Source of the DNA: Treponema sp.
Lineage (GTDB): Bacteria > Spirochaetota > Spirochaetia > Treponematales > Breznakiellaceae
NCBI GenBank assembly: GCA_031257695.1
Contig: JAIROB010000032.1
Coordinates: 1-8,423, forward strand
Length of the DNA stretch: 8,423 nucleotides
Reading direction: 5' to 3'
Shown: positions 1 through 8,423 of the stretch, piece after piece
Position numbering within the stretch: position 1 is the stretch's first letter
How the letters are laid out: every line of letters begins with the position of its first letter
Notes under the pieces: model-generated
Databases searched by the model: none
What the model was told of the DNA's origin: nothing
Seen by the model: the letters and a program-made list of their open reading frames with translations, nothing else
Position numbers and translations under genes: made by a program

Positions 1-695
1 ATGCGCCCTTCCGAAAAGGAAGCCACCTGGTCAAACAGGGTATACGCGTCCCGGAGGCTCCCGGTGGATTCCTTGGCAATCCAGAACAGGGCCTCGTCCT
101 CCGCCTCAATCCCCATCTCAGCGCAGGTCTCTTGCAGGATCCTCTGTATTGTTTCCAGGGGAATGAGCCTGAAATTGAACTGCTGGCAGCGGCTTCTGAT
201 GGTGGCCGGCACCTTATGCACTTCGGTGGTGGCAAAAATAAAGACGATATACCCGGGCGGCTCCTCGATGGTTTTGAGGAGCGCGTTGAAGGCGCTTGCG
301 GAGAGCATATGGACTTCGTCAATGATGTAGATCTTTTTCTTTCCCCCATGGGGCGGGAAGATCACCTCATCCCGGATTTGCCGAACATTGTCCACCGAAT
401 TATTGGAAGCCCCGTCAATCTCGATAATATCCAGGTTTGAGCCCCTGGCAATTTCCCGGCAGCTTGAACATTCCCCGCAGGGCGTTACCGTGGGCCCCTT
501 TTCGCAGTTGAGGGACCGGGCGAGTATTCGGGCGGCGCTGGTCTTGCCGCAGCCCCTGGGCCCGGAAAACAGGTAGGCCGGGGCAATATGCCCCGTTTCC
601 ACGGAACTTTTCAGGGTGGCGGCCACAAACTCCTGGCCTGCCAGCTCGTCGAACGTTTTCGGGCGGCGTCTGGTGGCGGTTACTTCATAGGACAT
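1..695 (-). CDS. dnaX: DNA polymerase III subunit gamma/tau, N-terminal part (runs off left edge)
   Basis: This is the clamp-loader ATPase that loads the beta clamp at the replication fork. Reading leftward from ATG at 695-693 gives 231 complete codons with no stop; the C-terminal domains lie outside the window. Visible in order: the DnaX N-terminal signature MSYEVTATRRRP; Walker A GPRGCGKTS at residues 45-53; zinc-binding cysteines C64, C73, C76 and C79; Walker B IYIIDEVHM with D126/E127; the FNALLKTIEEPP helix; and the SRC arginine-finger motif around R169. An in-frame stop at 725-723 lies just upstream and no other ATG, GTG or TTG falls between, so the start is well fixed. No Shine-Dalgarno sequence precedes it. 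The gene is divergent from the purine operon. The ATPase-domain identification is essentially certain; whether both tau and gamma forms are made cannot be judged from this fragment. Confidence 0.97.
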   Translation of the reverse strand, partial: MSYEVTATRRRPKTFDELAGQEFVAATLKSSVETGHIAPAYLFSGPRGCGKTSAARILARSLNCEKGPTVTPCGECSSCREIARGSNLDIIEIDGASNNSVDNVRQIRDEVIFPPHGGKKKIYIIDEVHMLSASAFNALLKTIEEPPGYIVFIFATTEVHKVPATIRSRCQQFNFRLIPLETIQRILQETCAEMGIEAEDEALFWIAKESTGSLRDAYTLFDQVASFSEGR

Positions 696-702
696 ATACG
701 CC

Positions 703-731
703 AGTATAGCCGAAACAGCCGATTAAAAAAA
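703..731 (-). promoter_or_regulatory. Possible dnaX core promoter, leaderless arrangement
   Basis: Read on the minus strand, TATACT (708-703) matches the -10 consensus at 5 of 6 positions and ends 7 nt before the dnaX ATG. The -35 position at 17-bp spacing (731-726) is only a T-run, a poor match. Transcription would start at or next to the A of ATG, which fits the lack of a ribosome-binding site. This is a consensus match only. Confidence 0.35.
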
Positions 732-735
732 GCCC

Positions 736-767
736 GCGCGTTGCCTCACGAAAAATGTTACCGAAAA
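736..767 (+). repeat. Left terminal inverted repeat of the 736-973 element
   Basis: This 32-bp arm begins GCGCGTTGCCTCA, has two mismatched bases (CG at 749-750) and ends AAAAATGTTACCGAAAA. Its reverse complement is found at 942-973. Identity stops abruptly outside both arms, which defines the element boundary. Confidence 0.85.
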
Positions 768-797
768 GAGTCCATGCCTCATATTGAAAATGTTACC
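752..797 (+). repeat. Direct repeat of AAAATGTTACC inside the element
   Basis: AAAATGTTACC occurs at 752-762 (inside the left terminal repeat) and again at 787-797, 35 bp further in. A third copy lies inverted at 947-957 in the right terminal repeat. Repeated motifs near an end are typical transposase-binding sites in some IS families, which is an inference here. Confidence 0.6.
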
Positions 798-824
798 CAA
801 ATGATATAAGTCGTTGTATTACAA

Positions 825-848
825 GGAATTAGGTAAAGACCTAATTCC
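825..848. repeat. Perfect 10-bp hairpin inside the element
   Basis: GGAATTAGGT (825-834), loop AAAG, then ACCTAATTCC (839-848) form a perfect stem. A short palindrome, TTGTA-T-TACAA (814-824), directly precedes it. No T-run follows on either strand, so it does not look like an intrinsic terminator. It could be a folding RNA feature, a protein-binding palindrome, or a scar of internal deletion of a larger element. Confidence 0.75.
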
Positions 849-941
849 ATATAGGATAAAGAGTTACAAAGAGGCTAAAAATCTGCCAGAAACCCTAAAT
901 GGGCATAGTTTAACTCTAAATCTATACAGGAAGTAGAGTTA

Positions 942-973
942 TTTTCGGTAACATTTTTGATGAGGCAACGCGC
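942..973 (-). repeat. Right terminal inverted repeat of the 736-973 element
   Basis: This is the reverse complement of 736-767 with mismatches only at 959-960. It ends 4 bp before the putative purE -35 hexamer. It places an in-frame TTG/ATG (957-962) upstream of purE, which I do not take as the purE start. Confidence 0.85.
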
Positions 974-977
974 CCCC

Positions 978-1006
978 TTGCCTAGCTTCCCCGGACATGG
1001 TAAATT
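978..1006 (+). promoter_or_regulatory. Likely purE operon promoter (extended -10), leaderless arrangement
   Basis: TTGCCT (978-983, 4 of 6 to consensus) is followed after exactly 17 bp by TAAATT (1001-1006, 4 of 6), with TG at 998-999 making an extended -10. The -10 ends 7 nt before the purE ATG, so the transcript would begin at or beside the start codon. No Shine-Dalgarno sequence is present, in contrast to most downstream genes. No purine repressor operator or riboswitch was recognised between here and the mobile element. This is a consensus match only. Confidence 0.45.
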
Positions 1007-1013
1007 TTCCCCT

Positions 1014-1501
1014 ATGAAAGCCGCCATAATTTTTGGTTCCCAGTCGGATAAGCCGGTGATGCAAAAAGCCGGTGAGGTGCTGCGGGAAGTTGGGGTGGAG
1101 TTTTCTGTCCATGTGCTGTCGGCTCACCGGGCGCCGGAGCTCCTGACCGATACCCTCCGTAAGCTGGAGGACGGCGGTGTCGAGGTTATCATCGCCGGGG
1201 CGGGGCTGGCGGCGCATCTCCCCGGGATTATCGCCAGCCGGACCCTGGTCCCGGTTATCGGGGTGCCCATTGTCTCCGGCTCCCTGGGGGGGCTGGACGC
1301 GCTGTACTCCATCGTTCAGATGCCCAGGCCCATACCGGTGGCCGCGGTGGGGCTGGACAACGCCGCCAACGCCGCCTACCTTGCCTGTGAAATTCTTGCG
1401 GTTAAATATCCGGAAATGAGGGAAAAACTGGCCGACTTCAGGGCGCGCATGAAGGCGGATTTTGAGCGGGATCATGTTCAGGACAGGGGAGGAGAGGAGT
1501 A

Positions 1502-1502
<1 letters not shown>
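1014..1502 (+). CDS. purE: N5-carboxyaminoimidazole ribonucleotide mutase, class I PurE
   Basis: PurE makes CAIR, the carboxylated AIR intermediate of purine synthesis. The 162-residue product is the usual length for single-domain PurE. Visible are the phosphate-binding GSQSD (8-12), SAHR (36-39, with the catalytic His at 38), [11 protein letters not shown] (61-71) and YSIVQMP (98-104). SAHR and AGAG-AAHLPG are class I features; treponemal class II PurE, as I recall it, has SAHK and AGRSN instead. Class I enzymes normally act after PurK, which is not in the window. I choose ATG 1014 because the family starts right before the first beta strand (MKAAIIFGS); the reading frame is open back to 957 but that part lies in the mobile element end. 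The TAA stop overlaps the purC ATG by one base. Confidence 0.96.
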
Positions 1503-2201
<699 letters not shown>

Positions 2202-2227
<26 letters not shown>

Positions 2228-3656
2228 AGGGCCGCACAGGGCCGCGCAGGATCCCGATGATGACGGCCTGCACGAAGAGTGCGGCGTTTTCGGCGTATTT
2301 CTGTCCGACTCTACCCTGGATGCCGCTTCCCTAACCTACTACGGGCTGCTGTCCCTGCAGCACCGGGGGCAGGAAAGCGCCGGCATTGCCGCGGCTGGCG
2401 ATAAGACCATAGAGTGCCGTAAGGGGATGGGCCTGGCCGGGGATGTGTTCAACTCCGATCTTATTTCCCAACTCAAAGGCCCCGCCGCGGTGGGGCATGT
2501 GCGCTACTCCACCGCCGGAAGCTCCAGCATCGAGAACGCCCAGCCCTTTGTAAGCCGCTCCAAGCTGGGCTCCGTCGCGGTGGCCCATAACGGCACCCTC
2601 ACCAATGCCGACGTGGTTCGGGAACTCCTGGAGGACGCGGGCGCCGGTTTTTCGTCATCCAGCGACAGCGAAGTTATCGTCAACCTGATCGTCAAAAATT
2701 ACAGGAAGGGCCTGGAAAAGGCGTTCACCGACACCATCAAATTTATCAAGGGCTCCTATGCCCTGGTGGTTCTTACCGACGACGCGCTGGTGGGCGCCCG
2801 GGACCCCACCGGGATCAGGCCCCTGTGCCTGGGCAGGCTCAAGGTCCGCAACGATGCTGCGGGGTGGATCCTGGCCAGCGAATCCTGCGCCATAGACGCG
2901 GTGGGGGGGGAATTTGTCCGGGACATAGAACCGGGGGAAGTGATCATCATCAGGAATGACGAAACGCTCTCCTTCAGCTTCAGCGAAAAAACCCGGCGGG
3001 CGGTCTGCGCGTTTGAGTACGTCTACTTTGCCCGACCGGACAGTATTATTGACGGGATCGATGTTTACGGATCCCGGGTGCGGGCCGGGGAAATTCTGGG
3101 ACGGGAATCCGCGGTTGTGGCGGACCTGGTTATCGGCGTGCCCGATTCGGGGGTCCCCGCGGCAATCGGCTACGGCAGGGCCACGGGAACGCTCTTCGGT
3201 CTGGGCATCGTAAAGAGCAAGTACGTGGGCCGCACCTTTATTGCGCCGGATCAGGCGGCCCGGGAAAAGGCCGTTTCGGTGAAGCACAACGCGATAGACC
3301 GGGAAGTCCGGGGAAAGCGGGTGGTGATCATCGATGACTCCATAGTGCGGGGCACCACCAGCAGGCGGCTGGTTGCAATTTTGCGGAAAGCCGGCGCCAG
3401 GGAGGTCCACATCCGGATCTGTTCGCCCCCGGTGCGCTTCCCCTGCTACTTCGGCATCGACACCCCCCACCGGAAGGACCTGATCAGCAACGGTTCCAGC
3501 GTTGTAGAGCTCTGCAAATCCCTGGGAGCGGACAGCCTGGCCTTTATCTCCGTGGACGGGCTTCTGGAATCCCTGGAGGCCACCGCGGAACGGTCCTACT
3601 GTTTGGGCTGCTTTACCGGGGAATACCCCATCCCGGTTTCAGGAGAAGCGCCATGA
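2202..3656 (+). CDS. purF: Amidophosphoribosyltransferase (glutamine PRPP amidotransferase), Fe-S type
   Basis: PurF catalyses the committed step, PRPP plus glutamine to phosphoribosylamine. The 484-residue product has an N-terminal Ntn glutaminase domain and a C-terminal phosphoribosyltransferase domain. The nucleophile is expected to be Cys27 in EECGVFGV after removal of a 26-residue propeptide. [11 protein letters not shown] (52-62) and HNGTLTN (129-135) are glutaminase blocks; [16 protein letters not shown] (374-389) is the PRPP-binding loop. Cysteines 269, 415, 467 and 470 correspond to the four Fe-S ligands of the Bacillus subtilis enzyme, including C-L-G-C near the C-terminus, so an oxygen-sensitive 4Fe-4S protein is likely. 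The start is a TTG with a good ribosome-binding site. The acidic propeptide is longer than the 11 residues known from B. subtilis. The TGA stop overlaps the purM ATG (ATGA). Confidence 0.97.
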
Positions 3657-4738
3657 CGGACTACAAACAGGCGGGGGTAGACATAGGCGAGGGCAGCCGG
3701 GCGGTGGACAAATACCGGGACCTGGCGGCCTCCACGGCTACTTCGGCGGCGCTCAACGGCCTGGGCAGCTTTGCGGGGATGTTTTCCCTGGGCGATCTCC
3801 TCCATGCCGGCGAGGGCATGGAGGAACCGGTGCTGGTTTCAGGAACCGACGGGGTGGGAACCAAGCTGGAAATCGCCTTCAGGCTGAAAAAATACGATAC
3901 CGTGGGCATCGACTGTGTGGCCATGTGCGTGAACGACGTGATCTGCCACGGGGCGCGGCCCCTTTTCTTTCTGGACTACCTGGCCTGCGGCAAACTGGAC
4001 GCGGATGTGGCCGCGGAGCTGGTCAAGGGTGTCGCCGTTGGCTGCCGGGAAACCGGGAGCGTCCTCCTGGGGGGGGAAACCGCGGAAATGCCCGGGTTCT
4101 ACGACGAGGGAAAGTACGACATGGCGGGATTTTCCGTGGGGATCGTTGACAAAAAGCGGATCGTCGACGGCGGGAAGATACGGGCCGGGGATGTCCTGGT
4201 GGGGATCGCCTCCTCGGGGCCCCACTCCAACGGGTTCAGCCTGATCCGCAGGGTTTTACCGGACCTGGACGAGGACTTCGGGGGTATGCCCCTGGGCTAC
4301 GCCCTCCTTGAGCCGACCCGGCTGTACGCAAAACCCGTGCTCCGCCTGCTGGAGCGGATCGAGGTGCGGGGCATGGCCCATATCACCGGCGGGGGCTTTT
4401 ACGAAAACATACCCCGGATGTTTGCCGCGCCGGTCTTTGACGCGGTGATACGCGGCGGAGCCTGGACCATTCCCCCCATTTTTGCCCGGATTGCAGCTGG
4501 CGTGGCGGGGCTTCGGGAAAGGGGCGCGGCGGCCCAGGCCGGGGGTACAAAACTGCTGGAGGCCGACGCCCTCTTGCGGAAACAGTTATTTAGCGCCTAT
4601 AATATGGGGATTGGATTTGTTTTGGCTGTGGCGGCCGCGGACAGCAAAGGGGCGATAGCGCTTTTGGAAGATCTGGGCTTCCCCGCCTGGGTGATCGGCC
4701 GGGTGGCGCCGGGAAATGGGGCGACGCGTTTTGAATAG
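3653..4738 (+). CDS. purM: Phosphoribosylformylglycinamidine cyclo-ligase (AIR synthetase)
   Basis: PurM closes the imidazole ring, converting FGAM to AIR with ATP. The 361-residue protein begins with the expected YKQAGVDI and shows SGTDGVGTKL (63-72), NDVICHGARPLFFLDY (94-109), GGETAEMPGFY (140-150), SSGPHSNGFSL (187-197), HITGGGFYENIPR (243-255) and NMGIGF (317-322). It is slightly long. The excess is a segment of about 20 residues, rich in Ala/Gly and charged residues, around 281-310, between PPIFARI and NMGIGF, where other PurM proteins have a short linker. AGGAG at 3641-3645 gives a good ribosome-binding site, and ATGA overlap couples it to purF. The last 23 nt overlap the small membrane ORF that follows. 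Confidence 0.97.
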   Translation: MTDYKQAGVDIGEGSRAVDKYRDLAASTATSAALNGLGSFAGMFSLGDLLHAGEGMEEPVLVSGTDGVGTKLEIAFRLKKYDTVGIDCVAMCVNDVICHGARPLFFLDYLACGKLDADVAAELVKGVAVGCRETGSVLLGGETAEMPGFYDEGKYDMAGFSVGIVDKKRIVDGGKIRAGDVLVGIASSGPHSNGFSLIRRVLPDLDEDFGGMPLGYALLEPTRLYAKPVLRLLERIEVRGMAHITGGGFYENIPRMFAAPVFDAVIRGGAWTIPPIFARIAAGVAGLRERGAAAQAGGTKLLEADALLRKQLFSAYNMGIGFVLAVAAADSKGAIALLEDLGFPAWVIGRVAPGNGATRFE

Positions 4739-4856
4739 AAACGAAAAACAATACTCCCCCCTAGTCCGCGGCCTGGTTCGGCTGGGGGGTCTGCTTATTT
4801 TCATCTTATGCGCGTTTCTTTTCGGGTACTTAATAGCGACCAGAGGAAACCGGTGA
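4716..4856 (+). CDS. Small single-span membrane protein, 46 aa, unknown function
   Basis: I do not recognise this protein. ATG 4716 opens a 46-codon frame overlapping the end of purM by 23 nt and ending in a TGA that overlaps the purN GTG start (GTGA at 4853-4856). The first third is basic and polar (R3, R4, R8, K11, R18). A hydrophobic span from about L20 to A41 follows (GGLLIFILCAFLFGYLIA is its core), then a short basic tail TRGNR. Such a pattern predicts one transmembrane helix. An in-frame TTG at 4731 would give 41 residues. The ribosome-binding site is weak (GGGTGG about 9 nt upstream of ATG), so coupling to purM translation is likely. The exact tiling between purM and purN and the clean helix argue for a real gene. 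The cysteine at 32 lacks a lipobox. Against it: it is very short, GC-rich, and holds a strong stem-loop that could be the selected feature instead. Confidence 0.6.
   Translation: MGRRVLNRNEKQYSPLVRGLVRLGGLLIFILCAFLFGYLIATRGNR
4756..4789 (+). other. Strong GC stem-loop between purM and purN
   Basis: CCCCCC (4756-4761) pairs with GGGGGG (4784-4789). Inside that, AG-T-CCG (4763-4768) pairs with CGGCT (4779-4783) with two single-base bulges, giving about 11 pairs around a 10-nt loop. U-rich but interrupted sequence follows (CTGCTTATTTTC). It could slow transcription or protect the RNA between purM and purN, or be a by-product of coding in the small ORF. It lacks a clean U-run, so I do not call it a terminator. 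Confidence 0.45.
4843..4855 (+). promoter_or_regulatory. Ribosome-binding site and GTG start of purN
   Basis: GAGGA (4843-4847) lies 5 nt before GTG 4853-4855. This supports GTG 4853 over the upstream in-frame ATG 4808, which would add 15 residues not found in the family and has no comparable site. Confidence 0.75.
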
Positions 4857-5452
4857 ATATCCTTGTGCTGGTCTCCGGGAACGGCGCTAATCTACAGGCT
4901 TTGATTGACGCGGAAAAGGAAGAGCGGCTGGGTCCGGGGCATATCGCCGCGGTCATATCCAACCGGAGCGGAGCCTATGCTCTGGAGCGGGCCAGGGCTG
5001 CGGGGATACCTACTTTCATTGAAACAACCGACAGGGGCCTTCCCGCCGGGGCGCGGCGGCGGGATCTTTCGGACCGGCTCCTGGGCGCTGCCCGGAGGAC
5101 CGGAGCGGGGCTTATTGTTCTTGCGGGCTTTTTAGGTATATTGGAAGGGGAGATCTTAAACGCCTACGAAAACCGGATCATCAACATCCACCCGAGCCTG
5201 CTGCCCAAATACGGCGGCGAGGGGATGTACGGCGATCGGGTCCACCGGGCGGTTCTGGCGGCGGGGGAGCAGGAGTCGGGCTGCACCGTGCACCTGGCGG
5301 ACCCGGGGACGGACACGGGCCCTATCCTGCTGCAGCGGAGGGTTCCGGTCCTGCCGGACGACACGGCGAAGTCCCTGGCGGAACGGATCCATGTTGAGGA
5401 ACATATCGCCATAGTCGAGGCCACGGCCTTGATGGCGAGAAAGTTACAGTAA
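4853..5452 (+). CDS. purN: Phosphoribosylglycinamide formyltransferase (GAR transformylase)
   Basis: PurN transfers the formyl group of 10-formyl-tetrahydrofolate to GAR. From GTG 4853 the product has 199 residues, the normal single-domain size, starting MNILVLVSGNGANLQAL as in the family. The folate/GAR catalytic residues line up with E. coli N106, H108 and D144: N111 and H113 in INIHPSLLPKY (110-120), and D154 in TDTGPILLQ (153-161). GCTVH (143-147) is also conserved. The start overlaps the stop of the small membrane ORF (GTGA) and has a GAGGA ribosome-binding site. It is followed after 13 nt by the aldo/keto reductase gene. No sign of damage. Confidence 0.96.
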   Translation: MNILVLVSGNGANLQALIDAEKEERLGPGHIAAVISNRSGAYALERARAAGIPTFIETTDRGLPAGARRRDLSDRLLGAARRTGAGLIVLAGFLGILEGEILNAYENRIINIHPSLLPKYGGEGMYGDRVHRAVLAAGEQESGCTVHLADPGTDTGPILLQRRVPVLPDDTAKSLAERIHVEEHIAIVEATALMARKLQ

Positions 5453-5465
5453 ATGGAGGTATGGT

Positions 5466-6623
5466 ATGGAAAAGCGACTTATCAAAAAAAGCGGCGAGGA
5501 ACTTTCTCTTTTGGGTTTTGGCCTGATGCGGCTGCCTTTAAAAGCGGGTTCACGGGAAATCGACAAAGCGTTGGCCCTGGAAATGGTGGACTACGCGAAG
5601 AACAAGGGGGTCAATTATTTTGACACCGCCTATATGTATCACGAAGGAAACTCCGAAACCTTTGCCGGGGAAGCTCTTTCGCGGTACGACCGGAATTCGT
5701 ATAAACTGGCCACCAAGATGCCCCTGATGATGCTGCAGAGGGAGGAGATGGTGGAAAATATCTTTGAAGAGCAGTTGAAAAAGTGCAGGGTTGAATATTT
5801 CGATTACTATCTGCTGCACAATGTCACCAGAGGGCAACTGAAAATGGTCGAAGATTTCAAGGTCTATGAGAAGCTCAAGGAAAAGCAGCGGCAGGGCAAA
5901 ATTCGCCACCTGGGGTTTTCCTTCCACGATGCCCCGGAAATTCTGGCAAAGGTGGTGGACAAATACGATTGGGACTTCGCGCAGATACAGCTTAACTATC
6001 TTGATTGGGATCAGCAGGACGCCAAGGGGCAGTACGCCATCCTTGAATCGCACGGAATTCCGGTTAATGTGATGGAGCCCGTTCGCGGCGGGTCCCTGGC
6101 GGATCTGGGCGGCGAAGCGGAGGCGATTTTCAAAGCCGCGGATCCCGGGGCCAGTATTCCCTCCTGGGCGATCCGGTTCGCGGCGTCCCTGCCGGGGGTG
6201 CAGGTTGTGCTCAGCGGTATGTCCGCCATGGAACAGGTTACGGACAATGTCGCGACCATGGAAAACTTCAAGCCCCTGTCGGAGGCGGACCGGGAGGTGA
6301 TTACCAAAGCTGTGCTGGCCTACCGCACCGCCGGAGCCGTTCCCTGTACGGGCTGCCGGTACTGTATGGACTGCCCCCAGGGGGTTGACATTCCCCGGAA
6401 CTTGGCGGCCTACAACGGTTACCTCTATAAAAAAGAGCGGAATGTGCCGGGCTATAATTTCAGCTTTATGATGGAGTACAACGGCATGGGCGAGGAGAAG
6501 CAGGCGCGTAACTGTGTAGGCTGTAAGCAGTGCGAGGAAAAGTGTCCCCAGCACATTGAGATTTCCCTCCAGATGGAGCTTATCCAGAAAGCGGCAACGG
6601 CAGCAATGCCCCCGCGCCCCTAA
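5466..6623 (+). CDS. Aldo/keto reductase with two C-terminal 4Fe-4S motifs
   Basis: This is a predicted oxidoreductase of the aldo/keto reductase family with a ferredoxin-like tail (the COG1453-type architecture). Residues 1-280 form the AKR barrel, with the tetrad visible as D53 and Y58 in FDTAYMYHEG, K84 in ATKMP, and H118 in YLLHNV. The tail carries CTGCRYCMDCP (C294, C297, C300, C303) followed by QGVDIP, and CVGCKQCEEKCP (C350, C353, C356, C360), consistent with two 4Fe-4S clusters. No signal peptide is visible, so it is probably cytoplasmic. GGAGG (5455-5459) sits 6 nt before ATG 5466. It lies between purN and purH with gaps of 13 and 12 nt, clearly within the transcription unit, yet no such enzyme is part of known IMP synthesis. 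My count of 5521-5940 gives about 50% GC, lower than purM and purF. Substrate and electron partner cannot be told from sequence. Confidence 0.9.
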   Translation: MEKRLIKKSGEELSLLGFGLMRLPLKAGSREIDKALALEMVDYAKNKGVNYFDTAYMYHEGNSETFAGEALSRYDRNSYKLATKMPLMMLQREEMVENIFEEQLKKCRVEYFDYYLLHNVTRGQLKMVEDFKVYEKLKEKQRQGKIRHLGFSFHDAPEILAKVVDKYDWDFAQIQLNYLDWDQQDAKGQYAILESHGIPVNVMEPVRGGSLADLGGEAEAIFKAADPGASIPSWAIRFAASLPGVQVVLSGMSAMEQVTDNVATMENFKPLSEADREVITKAVLAYRTAGAVPCTGCRYCMDCPQGVDIPRNLAAYNGYLYKKERNVPGYNFSFMMEYNGMGEEKQARNCVGCKQCEEKCPQHIEISLQMELIQKAATAAMPPRP

Positions 6624-6635
6624 AAAGGGTTTGTT

Positions 6636-8423
<1,788 letters not shown>

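Follow-up and report, generated by a model that had tools for sequence, protein, structure and literature searches.

The window, an 8,423-nucleotide stretch of Treponema sp. (GenBank assembly GCA_031257695.1, contig JAIROB010000032.1, positions 1 to 8,423), contains a short palindromic element between two divergently read genes. The genes of the window were named by recognition from the sequence, without a family search, and we take their order to be dnaX (minus strand), the element, purE, purC, purF, purM, purN, an iron-sulfur (Fe-S) aldo/keto reductase, purH and the start of purD. The element is a miniature inverted-repeat transposable element (MITE). Comparison of its relatives shows a mobile family in which some copies have a 5-bp duplication and in which insertion is oriented, 5 bp ahead of predicted promoters.

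The element between dnaX and purE

The following features were assigned to the element and its immediate flanks.

737..972, unstranded: MITE, a non-autonomous element, assigned from the inverted repeat (30/32), the absence of an open reading frame (ORF), related copies elsewhere and the duplications of other copies
737..762, plus strand: left outer end, CGCGT followed by TGCCTCA...GTTACC, a putative transposase site, assigned by its match to other left ends
775..797, plus strand: left inner repeat, a second copy of the end repeat, read from the sequence and partly repeat family D1
806..943, unstranded: conserved MITE interior, aligned with 18 other copies
825..848, unstranded: internal palindrome GGAATTAGGT..ACCTAATTCC, paired in the single-sequence fold and absent from the consensus fold
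911..941, unstranded: internal palindrome TAACTCTA...TAGAGTTA, a hairpin of 8 pairs conserved in copies
947..972, minus strand: right outer end of the left (promoter-facing) type, assigned by a 31-bp identity to other left ends
732..736, unstranded: 5-bp flank at the duplication position, GCCCG, matching 973..977 at 3/5 positions
973..977, unstranded: 5-bp flank at the duplication position, CCCCC, matching 732..736 at 3/5 positions

An earlier note on this DNA, made from the sequence alone, had described a 238-bp non-autonomous mobile element without an ORF, with ends that are reverse complements at 30 of 32 positions and an interior of about 34% GC in a GC-rich setting. The 30/32 complementarity was reproduced (736-767 versus 942-973). 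The GC content was measured as 33.9% in the interior (768-941) and 37.0% over 736-973, compared with 59.9% for the window outside the element. No ORF was found, the longest stop-free run within 737-972 in six frames being 43 codons. The position between dnaX and purE also stood, but the extent was revised: the limits are likely 737-972 (236 bp), since in other copies a 5-bp duplication lies immediately outside such tips. Each end of 737-972 begins with the 5-nt tip CGCGT, followed by TGCCTCA.

On the left side, 737-806 is 93-95% identical to the left ends of other copies over 66-70 bp. The layout with an inner repeat, which the earlier note had missed, was also found in the full insertion sequence (IS) of L147, a locus in a related genome, and at the left end of 8/8 distant relatives. 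On the right side, 942-972 is identical at 31/31 bp to the left ends of L145, L150, L162, L175 and L206; the usual right tips of the family are CGAAA, CGTGT, CGTAA and similar. The window copy therefore carries two ends of the promoter-facing type, each 5 bp from a putative promoter.

Folded as single-stranded DNA, 700-1010 reached -51.3 kcal/mol versus a shuffle mean of -24.8 (z -8.0) and beat 100/100 shuffles. The consensus fold of the interior contains only one 8-bp hairpin, with one compensatory pair: in the hairpin at 911-941 this pair is changed on both sides in 6/19 sequences and broken in 3. This was not taken as evidence for an RNA function. An Rfam search of 600-1100 gave no match, and a search of phage DNA returned two records of one phage with 20-bp chance matches only.

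The element family, its insertion sequence and target duplications

A BLAST search with 730-980 matched the element or its ends in 7/13 genomes reached via PurE loci and in at least 108/195 genomes of one Treponema-type family; in the latter search at most four candidate stretches were scored per genome, so that its counts are lower bounds. Of the outcomes that the earlier note had proposed to look for, dispersed copies and a full IS with the same kind of ends were both found in related genomes, and they support its suggestion of a non-autonomous mobile element. Single-copy conservation of the whole intergenic region, which it had named as the outcome speaking against mobility, was not seen in the relatives inspected.

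Nineteen interiors, including that of the window, align at 83% mean column identity. The interior model was matched in 23/195 genomes with up to 13 matches in one, the source copies of the model matching by construction. Because one and the same interior occurs in copies with differing ends (TGCCTCA...GTTACC, TGCCTCA...TCTAACC and TGCGCCA...TCTAACC), ends and interior apparently have partly separate histories. The interior is conserved over at least three end types in the 19 copies and was not seen in L147, the sole full IS read. Two copies have an unusual structure. In L135 (1499-1638) the 3' interior hairpin has a loop that, compared with other copies, appears to be reverse-complemented, as if flipped, and in L124 (about 60-360) the MITE directly abuts the end of another element, with a 5-bp GGGGG common to both, a stacked insertion.

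The full IS in L147 extends with both ends from 1508 to 2907 and contains one ORF of 407 amino acids and two end repeats per side. In its transposase, rve (PF00665, E 8e-11) was the sole domain above the Pfam cut-off. The protein is 34.0% identical to the transposase of ISLbi1 from Leptospira biflexa p74 (residues 11-385, 92% coverage, E 7e-54). ISLbi1 was the best-placed plasmid tblastn match with a specific IS name; three rows above it were generic or unlabelled, one of these three under a record label reading 'IS256 family transposase | transposase'. A protein search gave 1239 relatives at E 0.001, 120 of them listed. The motif FVEQKNGTVVR has a V as the seventh residue after the E, the catalytic E being assigned by motif only. 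A sequence search of the PDB gave weak matches to retroviral integrases, and the AlphaFold model built from 21 transposase sequences was poor (mean pLDDT 49.2, pTM 0.27).

The transposase stayed below the cut-offs of the IS481 and IS3 NCBIfam models. Its best NCBIfam match was IS481, with 35.3 bits versus a cut-off of 224, so that by this curated model it is not a member of IS481. Judged by E value, all 21 aligned transposase members matched the IS481 model (E <0.001). Tandem TGCxTCA-type repeats were found at the left end of 8/8 relatives including ISLbi1 and were seen at the right end in 4/8, three of the eight being nearly one and the same Rhizobium IS. Because of the transposase homology and the same tandem end architecture, the autonomous partner appears to be related to the ISLbi1 group of ISNCY and is placed with it. 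IS1202, the first guess for the partner IS, was dropped, since the ends are not TGT...ACA and the transposase matches ISLbi1. The Rhizobium and Novosphingobium ISNCY relatives (L366, L370, L371 and L365) adjoin a recurring motif like GCGACNATCAGGATGAGA, which is perhaps the end of another repeat or IS; because of this recurrence, a different fixed target may be in use in another lineage of this IS group.

The target-site duplication (TSD) was read from 15 of 21 copies; L135 and L161 were excluded because contig ends truncate them, and L130, L156, L163 and L164 because their ends are unclear. An exact 5-bp repeat lies directly outside the tips in 6/15 complete copies and a 4/5 match in one more, and duplications of 6-8 bp were found in 0/15. 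The ISLbi1 group has a listed TSD length of 5 bp, and a 5-bp TSD (AGTGC) was read by eye in the relative L365. In the window copy the flanks GCCCG and CCCCC agree at 3/5.

Placement of left-type ends beside predicted promoters

In total, 166 distinct ends were gathered from 97 stretches picked from the hit list, some listed places remaining unfetched, plus the loci returned by earlier searches. Sorting by the 5-nt tip gave 123 left-type ends, 22 right-type ends and 21 with another tip; the last are inner repeats, degenerate ends or chance matches and were not counted. After removal of one near-duplicate (L159, a near copy of L129 2213), 122 left ends from 61 genomes and the window were available. 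The tips of the family are mostly CGCGT or CGCAT, followed by TGCCTCA. A first, narrower end pattern (36 ends) missed the GTTACC-type ends and was replaced by a wider one.

Read outward from the left tip, the flank consists of 5 bp, a TTGACA-like hexamer, about 17 bp and a TATAAT-like hexamer. The three best -35 positions carry 1.28, 1.05 and 0.71 bits, the adjacent base 0.79 and the -10 up to 0.79. TTG was located exactly 5 bp from the tip in 81/122 left ends and at any other offset between 0 and 15 in 0-4/122. Under a joint promoter rule (a minimum of 3/6 for the -35 and of 4/6 for the -10, with a spacer of 15-19), 89/122 left ends scored at offset 5, compared with 1-19/122 at offsets 0-4 and 6-15 and a mean of 6.6 (maximum 17 of 122) for shuffled left flanks. 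Among the right-type ends, 2/22 scored at offset 5 and 0-4/22 at other offsets. Of the 105 left ends that have a -10, 62 show a spacer of 17 bp and 20 one of 18 bp. Promoter-placed ends, one or more per source, were found in 51/62 sources (50 genomes and the window). Promoter-placed left ends were observed at MITE loci (14/21, including a few other ends from the same loci) and at other loci (75/101). The signal is not merely a preference for TTG, because a -10 at spacer 16-18 follows TTG in 93% of cases at left ends (n=81) versus 11% of 11,857 control TTG, taken from 98 loci with coding DNA included. By comparison it is shown that most left-type ends of the family sit exactly 5 bp upstream of the -35 of predicted sigma70-type promoters, beside and not within them.

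These predicted promoters fire away from the element. Since both hexamers lie outside it, the element supplies no promoter and makes no hybrid promoters. Within about 260 nt, 99/115 left ends and 8/14 right ends are followed by the start of an ORF that reads away. Ten of the 99 ORFs were picked by eye, and a Pfam match was obtained for 10/10: ribosomal proteins S16, L32 and S6, PPDK, SAM synthetase, GARS, a glutamine amidotransferase, a cytidylyltransferase, an FGGY kinase and ATP synthase c. Among the targeted genes, start codons are most frequent 40-44 nt outside the tip (23/99 ORFs), only 6-10 nt past the -10; for dnaX and purE in the window, with starts at 695 and 1014, there are 7 nt between -10 and ATG each. 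Because the start codons are so close to the -10, many mRNAs of targeted genes may have almost no leader. In the genome G049, the ends L129 2213 and L159 306 have near-identical promoter flanks and different end types at exactly the same position, and represent either two paralogous promoters or one locus assembled twice.

Two genes could be compared with element-free relatives. At ppdK, the element of G056 ends at a 5-bp flank ahead of the promoter, and G057 and G001 have no element; their homology (89%) begins inside the 5-bp flank. At rpsP, the element of G066 lies 5 bp from TTGACA, and the homology (86%) of the element-free G065 begins at TTGACA. Since the element-free relatives keep the promoters, these belong to the host and not to the element. 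A different element end, of GGCTAGATTAATTTTGAGGCA type and with another 5-bp flank, was found in G064 (L315) at the same place upstream of rpsP as in G066 (L236), which suggests independent insertions at one spot.

Several observations weigh against a promoter-placed mobile family. The promoter rule fails in 33/122 left ends, including that of the window, where the -35 of dnaX is TTTTTT. A -10 at the expected place was found in 13 of the 27 left ends whose -35 is weak, versus 4-8 at control positions. The promoters are predictions, intergenic location may account for some of the -10 contrast because the controls include coding DNA, and left and right ends differ only modestly in the ORF test. 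In distant relatives (rhizobia and other bacteria), 0/13 outer left ends met the promoter rule; in one of them, L367, TTGCAT stands at offset 5 with no -10 behind it. No exact TSD was found in 9/15 complete copies, and the full IS in L147 lacks a matching flank pair (GCCAC/GACCG).

Mechanism, origin of the dnaX-purE copy and known systems

Taking these points together, the best overall explanation is with high probability a MITE mobilised in trans by an ISLbi1-like (ISNCY) IS, belonging to a family that is placed at promoters. The transposase would act on the MITE in trans, its transpososome would recognise the promoter, either the DNA itself or RNA polymerase on it, and strand transfer would take place at a fixed position beside the -35 with the left end leading. 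Promoter-side placement would allow the element to spread without breaking genes. The element replaces the DNA upstream of the -35, so that an effect on expression is possible.

How the promoter is recognised can be answered only tentatively. We consider it conceivable, with some reserve, that the rve-type transposase of the ISLbi1 kind engages promoters occupied by RNA polymerase and places one defined end against the upstream side of the -35. Held with the same reserve is the alternative that the transposase reads a short word (about CTTGAC) in naked DNA without sensing promoters. The -35 core (up to 1.28 bits) and the preceding C (0.79) are among the most conserved flank positions. The merely modest excess of placed -10 hexamers at ends with a weak -35 indicates that the -35 carries most of the signal, which favours direct reading of the -35 sequence. 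Against a short word alone, a properly spaced -10 follows CTTGAC in 87% of cases at left ends (n=30) and in 11% of 194 elsewhere, a contrast part of which selection against intragenic insertions could account for.

The genes and putative promoters on both sides of the window copy are as follows.

3..695, minus strand: dnaX, 5' part, an ORF named by recognition from the sequence
703..731, minus strand: putative dnaX promoter, TTTTTT (726-731), 17-bp spacer, TATACT (703-708)
978..1006, plus strand: putative purE promoter, TTGCCT (978-983), 17-bp spacer, TAAATT (1001-1006)
1014..1502, plus strand: purE, an open frame named by recognition, its start at 1014 set by alignment with relatives

The -35 of the putative dnaX promoter is weak (2/6) and fails the scoring rule, and the purE promoter passes it. 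The closest PurE, from a Spirochaetaceae metagenome-assembled genome (MAG), is 81% identical, and the next 12 come from 10 Treponema MAGs and 2 Spirochaetia. These MAGs are presumably of termite-gut origin, a guess from their isolate codes, as the record fields do not give it. Further downstream, the Fe-S aldo/keto reductase-like ORF (5466-6623) lies within the purine operon between purN and purH.

The dnaX side of the window (480-736) matches 147/195 genomes and the purE side (973-1230) 69/195. In 7/12 dnaX loci inspected, dnaX homology extends to 732-737 and then stops, and in three genomes (G006, G143 and G142) purE homology extends to 972-973 and then stops. No element was seen at dnaX or purE in the 12 dnaX and 13 purE rows inspected. 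The two genes are neighbours in none of the relatives examined: a tblastn search of 19 PurE loci found no DnaX, one contig of G142 carries dnaX at 3.89 Mb and purE at 0.39 Mb, and in G143 and G006 the two genes are on different contigs. Both promoters are recognisable in element-free relatives. A T-run and a TATACT-like box occur at dnaX in most of them, mostly with a C-rich run (top strand) beside the promoter at the position of 732-736, and the TTG and TGGTAAATTT of purE are conserved in G006, G143, G142 and G001. CCCCC is also present ahead of the purE -35 in L006/L352, L353, L356 and L001/L357.

Because the window copy has two left-type ends, joins genes that are apart in relatives and has flanks matching at only 3/5, it is probably, although by no means firmly, a hybrid from recombination between two promoter-parked copies. 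One MITE would have been parked at each of the dnaX and purE promoters; the two would have recombined through matching ends, the intervening DNA would have been removed or moved, and the outcome would be one hybrid element with two promoter-facing ends and both promoters kept. This is one step beyond the habit of the family, and it explains how two promoter-facing ends join separate genes. A single MITE insertion between back-to-back dnaX and purE promoters, with a 5-bp duplication that mutated later and no recombination of copies, also fits the window and counts against the hybrid, yet it seems rather doubtful. Both flanks are C-rich, GCCCG/CCCCC at 3/5 or, in a by-eye parse, GCCCG/GCCCC at 4/5, and known promoter-targeting ISs with nearly perfect inverted repeats are reported with promoters on both sides in PMC3942029. 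However, dnaX and purE are non-adjacent in the relatives checked, with other sequence directly upstream of each, and a single insertion needs prior adjacency with breakpoints 5 bp from both -35 boxes.

Two further explanations concern the family as a whole. The fixed distance could be a by-product of selection, insertions in genes or promoters dying and upstream ones surviving. The many left ends with an ORF reading away (99/115) and the ribosomal protein and other housekeeping genes among the ten by-eye picks are compatible with this, but selection predicts a spread of distances and both orientations, and the signal is seen at one offset and one end, which makes this explanation very improbable. 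It is barely credible that the palindrome is not mobile DNA but belongs to the dnaX-purE intergenic region as a conserved regulatory or RNA element: this would suit the strong fold, the interior conserved among copies and the hairpin with its covarying pair, but copies are found next to unrelated genes, ends of this kind flank a transposase gene, TSDs are present, the inspected dnaX and purE loci lack the element and Rfam gives no match.

The placement of the family bears on several questions. The insertion distance equals the element's own target duplication length of 5 bp, and the flanks amount to a promoter map, natural and predicted, for bacteria that are mainly known through metagenomes. 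The system permits a direct test of whether a DDE transposase reads promoter DNA or the polymerase on top of it. If the polymerase is engaged, this would be a bacterial parallel of retrotransposons docking on the transcription machinery, with an evolutionary origin separate from that of the Mutator-like TnGBS elements. As the dnaX-purE copy suggests, genes could be reshuffled without loss of their promoters, and recombination between promoter-parked copies would rearrange operons with their promoters preserved, as at dnaX-purE.

In the literature found, promoter-adjacent oriented insertion is known for Mutator-like elements only, and the present case involves another transposase class. No report of promoter targeting by an ISLbi1-like/ISNCY element or by these MITEs was found in a search that most subscription journals lay outside. 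According to PMC3942029, the TnGBS ICEs, ISLre2 and some of the ISKra4 elements insert upstream of sigmaA promoters, at 15-17 bp from the -35, in a mostly fixed orientation that is tied to an asymmetry between their ends; where the inverted repeats are near-perfect, there is a promoter on either side. The same text assigns this group to p-MULT 3 and 4, with Mutator-like transposases. PMC10433421 mentions ISs that target motifs upstream of promoters, and the two works that it cites on this point are the TnGBS papers. The family studied here shares the promoter-adjacent oriented placement (89/122 left-type ends) with the p-MULT elements. It differs in having a transposase of the rve/retroviral-integrase type instead of a Mutator-like one, and in its distance of 5 bp from the -35 instead of 15-17 bp; at the p-MULT-like offset of 15, 13/122 left ends scored under the joint rule, the scoring covering offsets 0-15.

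The ISLbi1/ISNCY ISs have a homologous transposase and the same tandem TGCxTCA-type end repeats. Unlike them, the window element lacks a transposase gene, and the promoter lock was seen in the Treponema-type group only (0/13 distant relatives). IS481 is the best NCBIfam match of the transposase, which nevertheless scores below the IS481 cut-off. ISs of the ISAjo2 type of the IS1202 family, as described in PMC10132070, are about 1.5 kb long, encode a transposase of 441-457 amino acids, carry an extra transposase site inside each end and insert in one orientation 5 bp from a XerC site with a 5-bp TSD. They resemble the present family in layout, in the 5-bp TSD and in oriented insertion 5 bp from a protein-binding site, and differ in ends beginning with TGT instead of CGCGT-TGCCTCA and in a dif/pdif target instead of promoters. 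On the sequences compared, the Treponema-type family works like the p-MULT elements and resembles IS1202 in layout, but departs from each of them in at least one defining trait.
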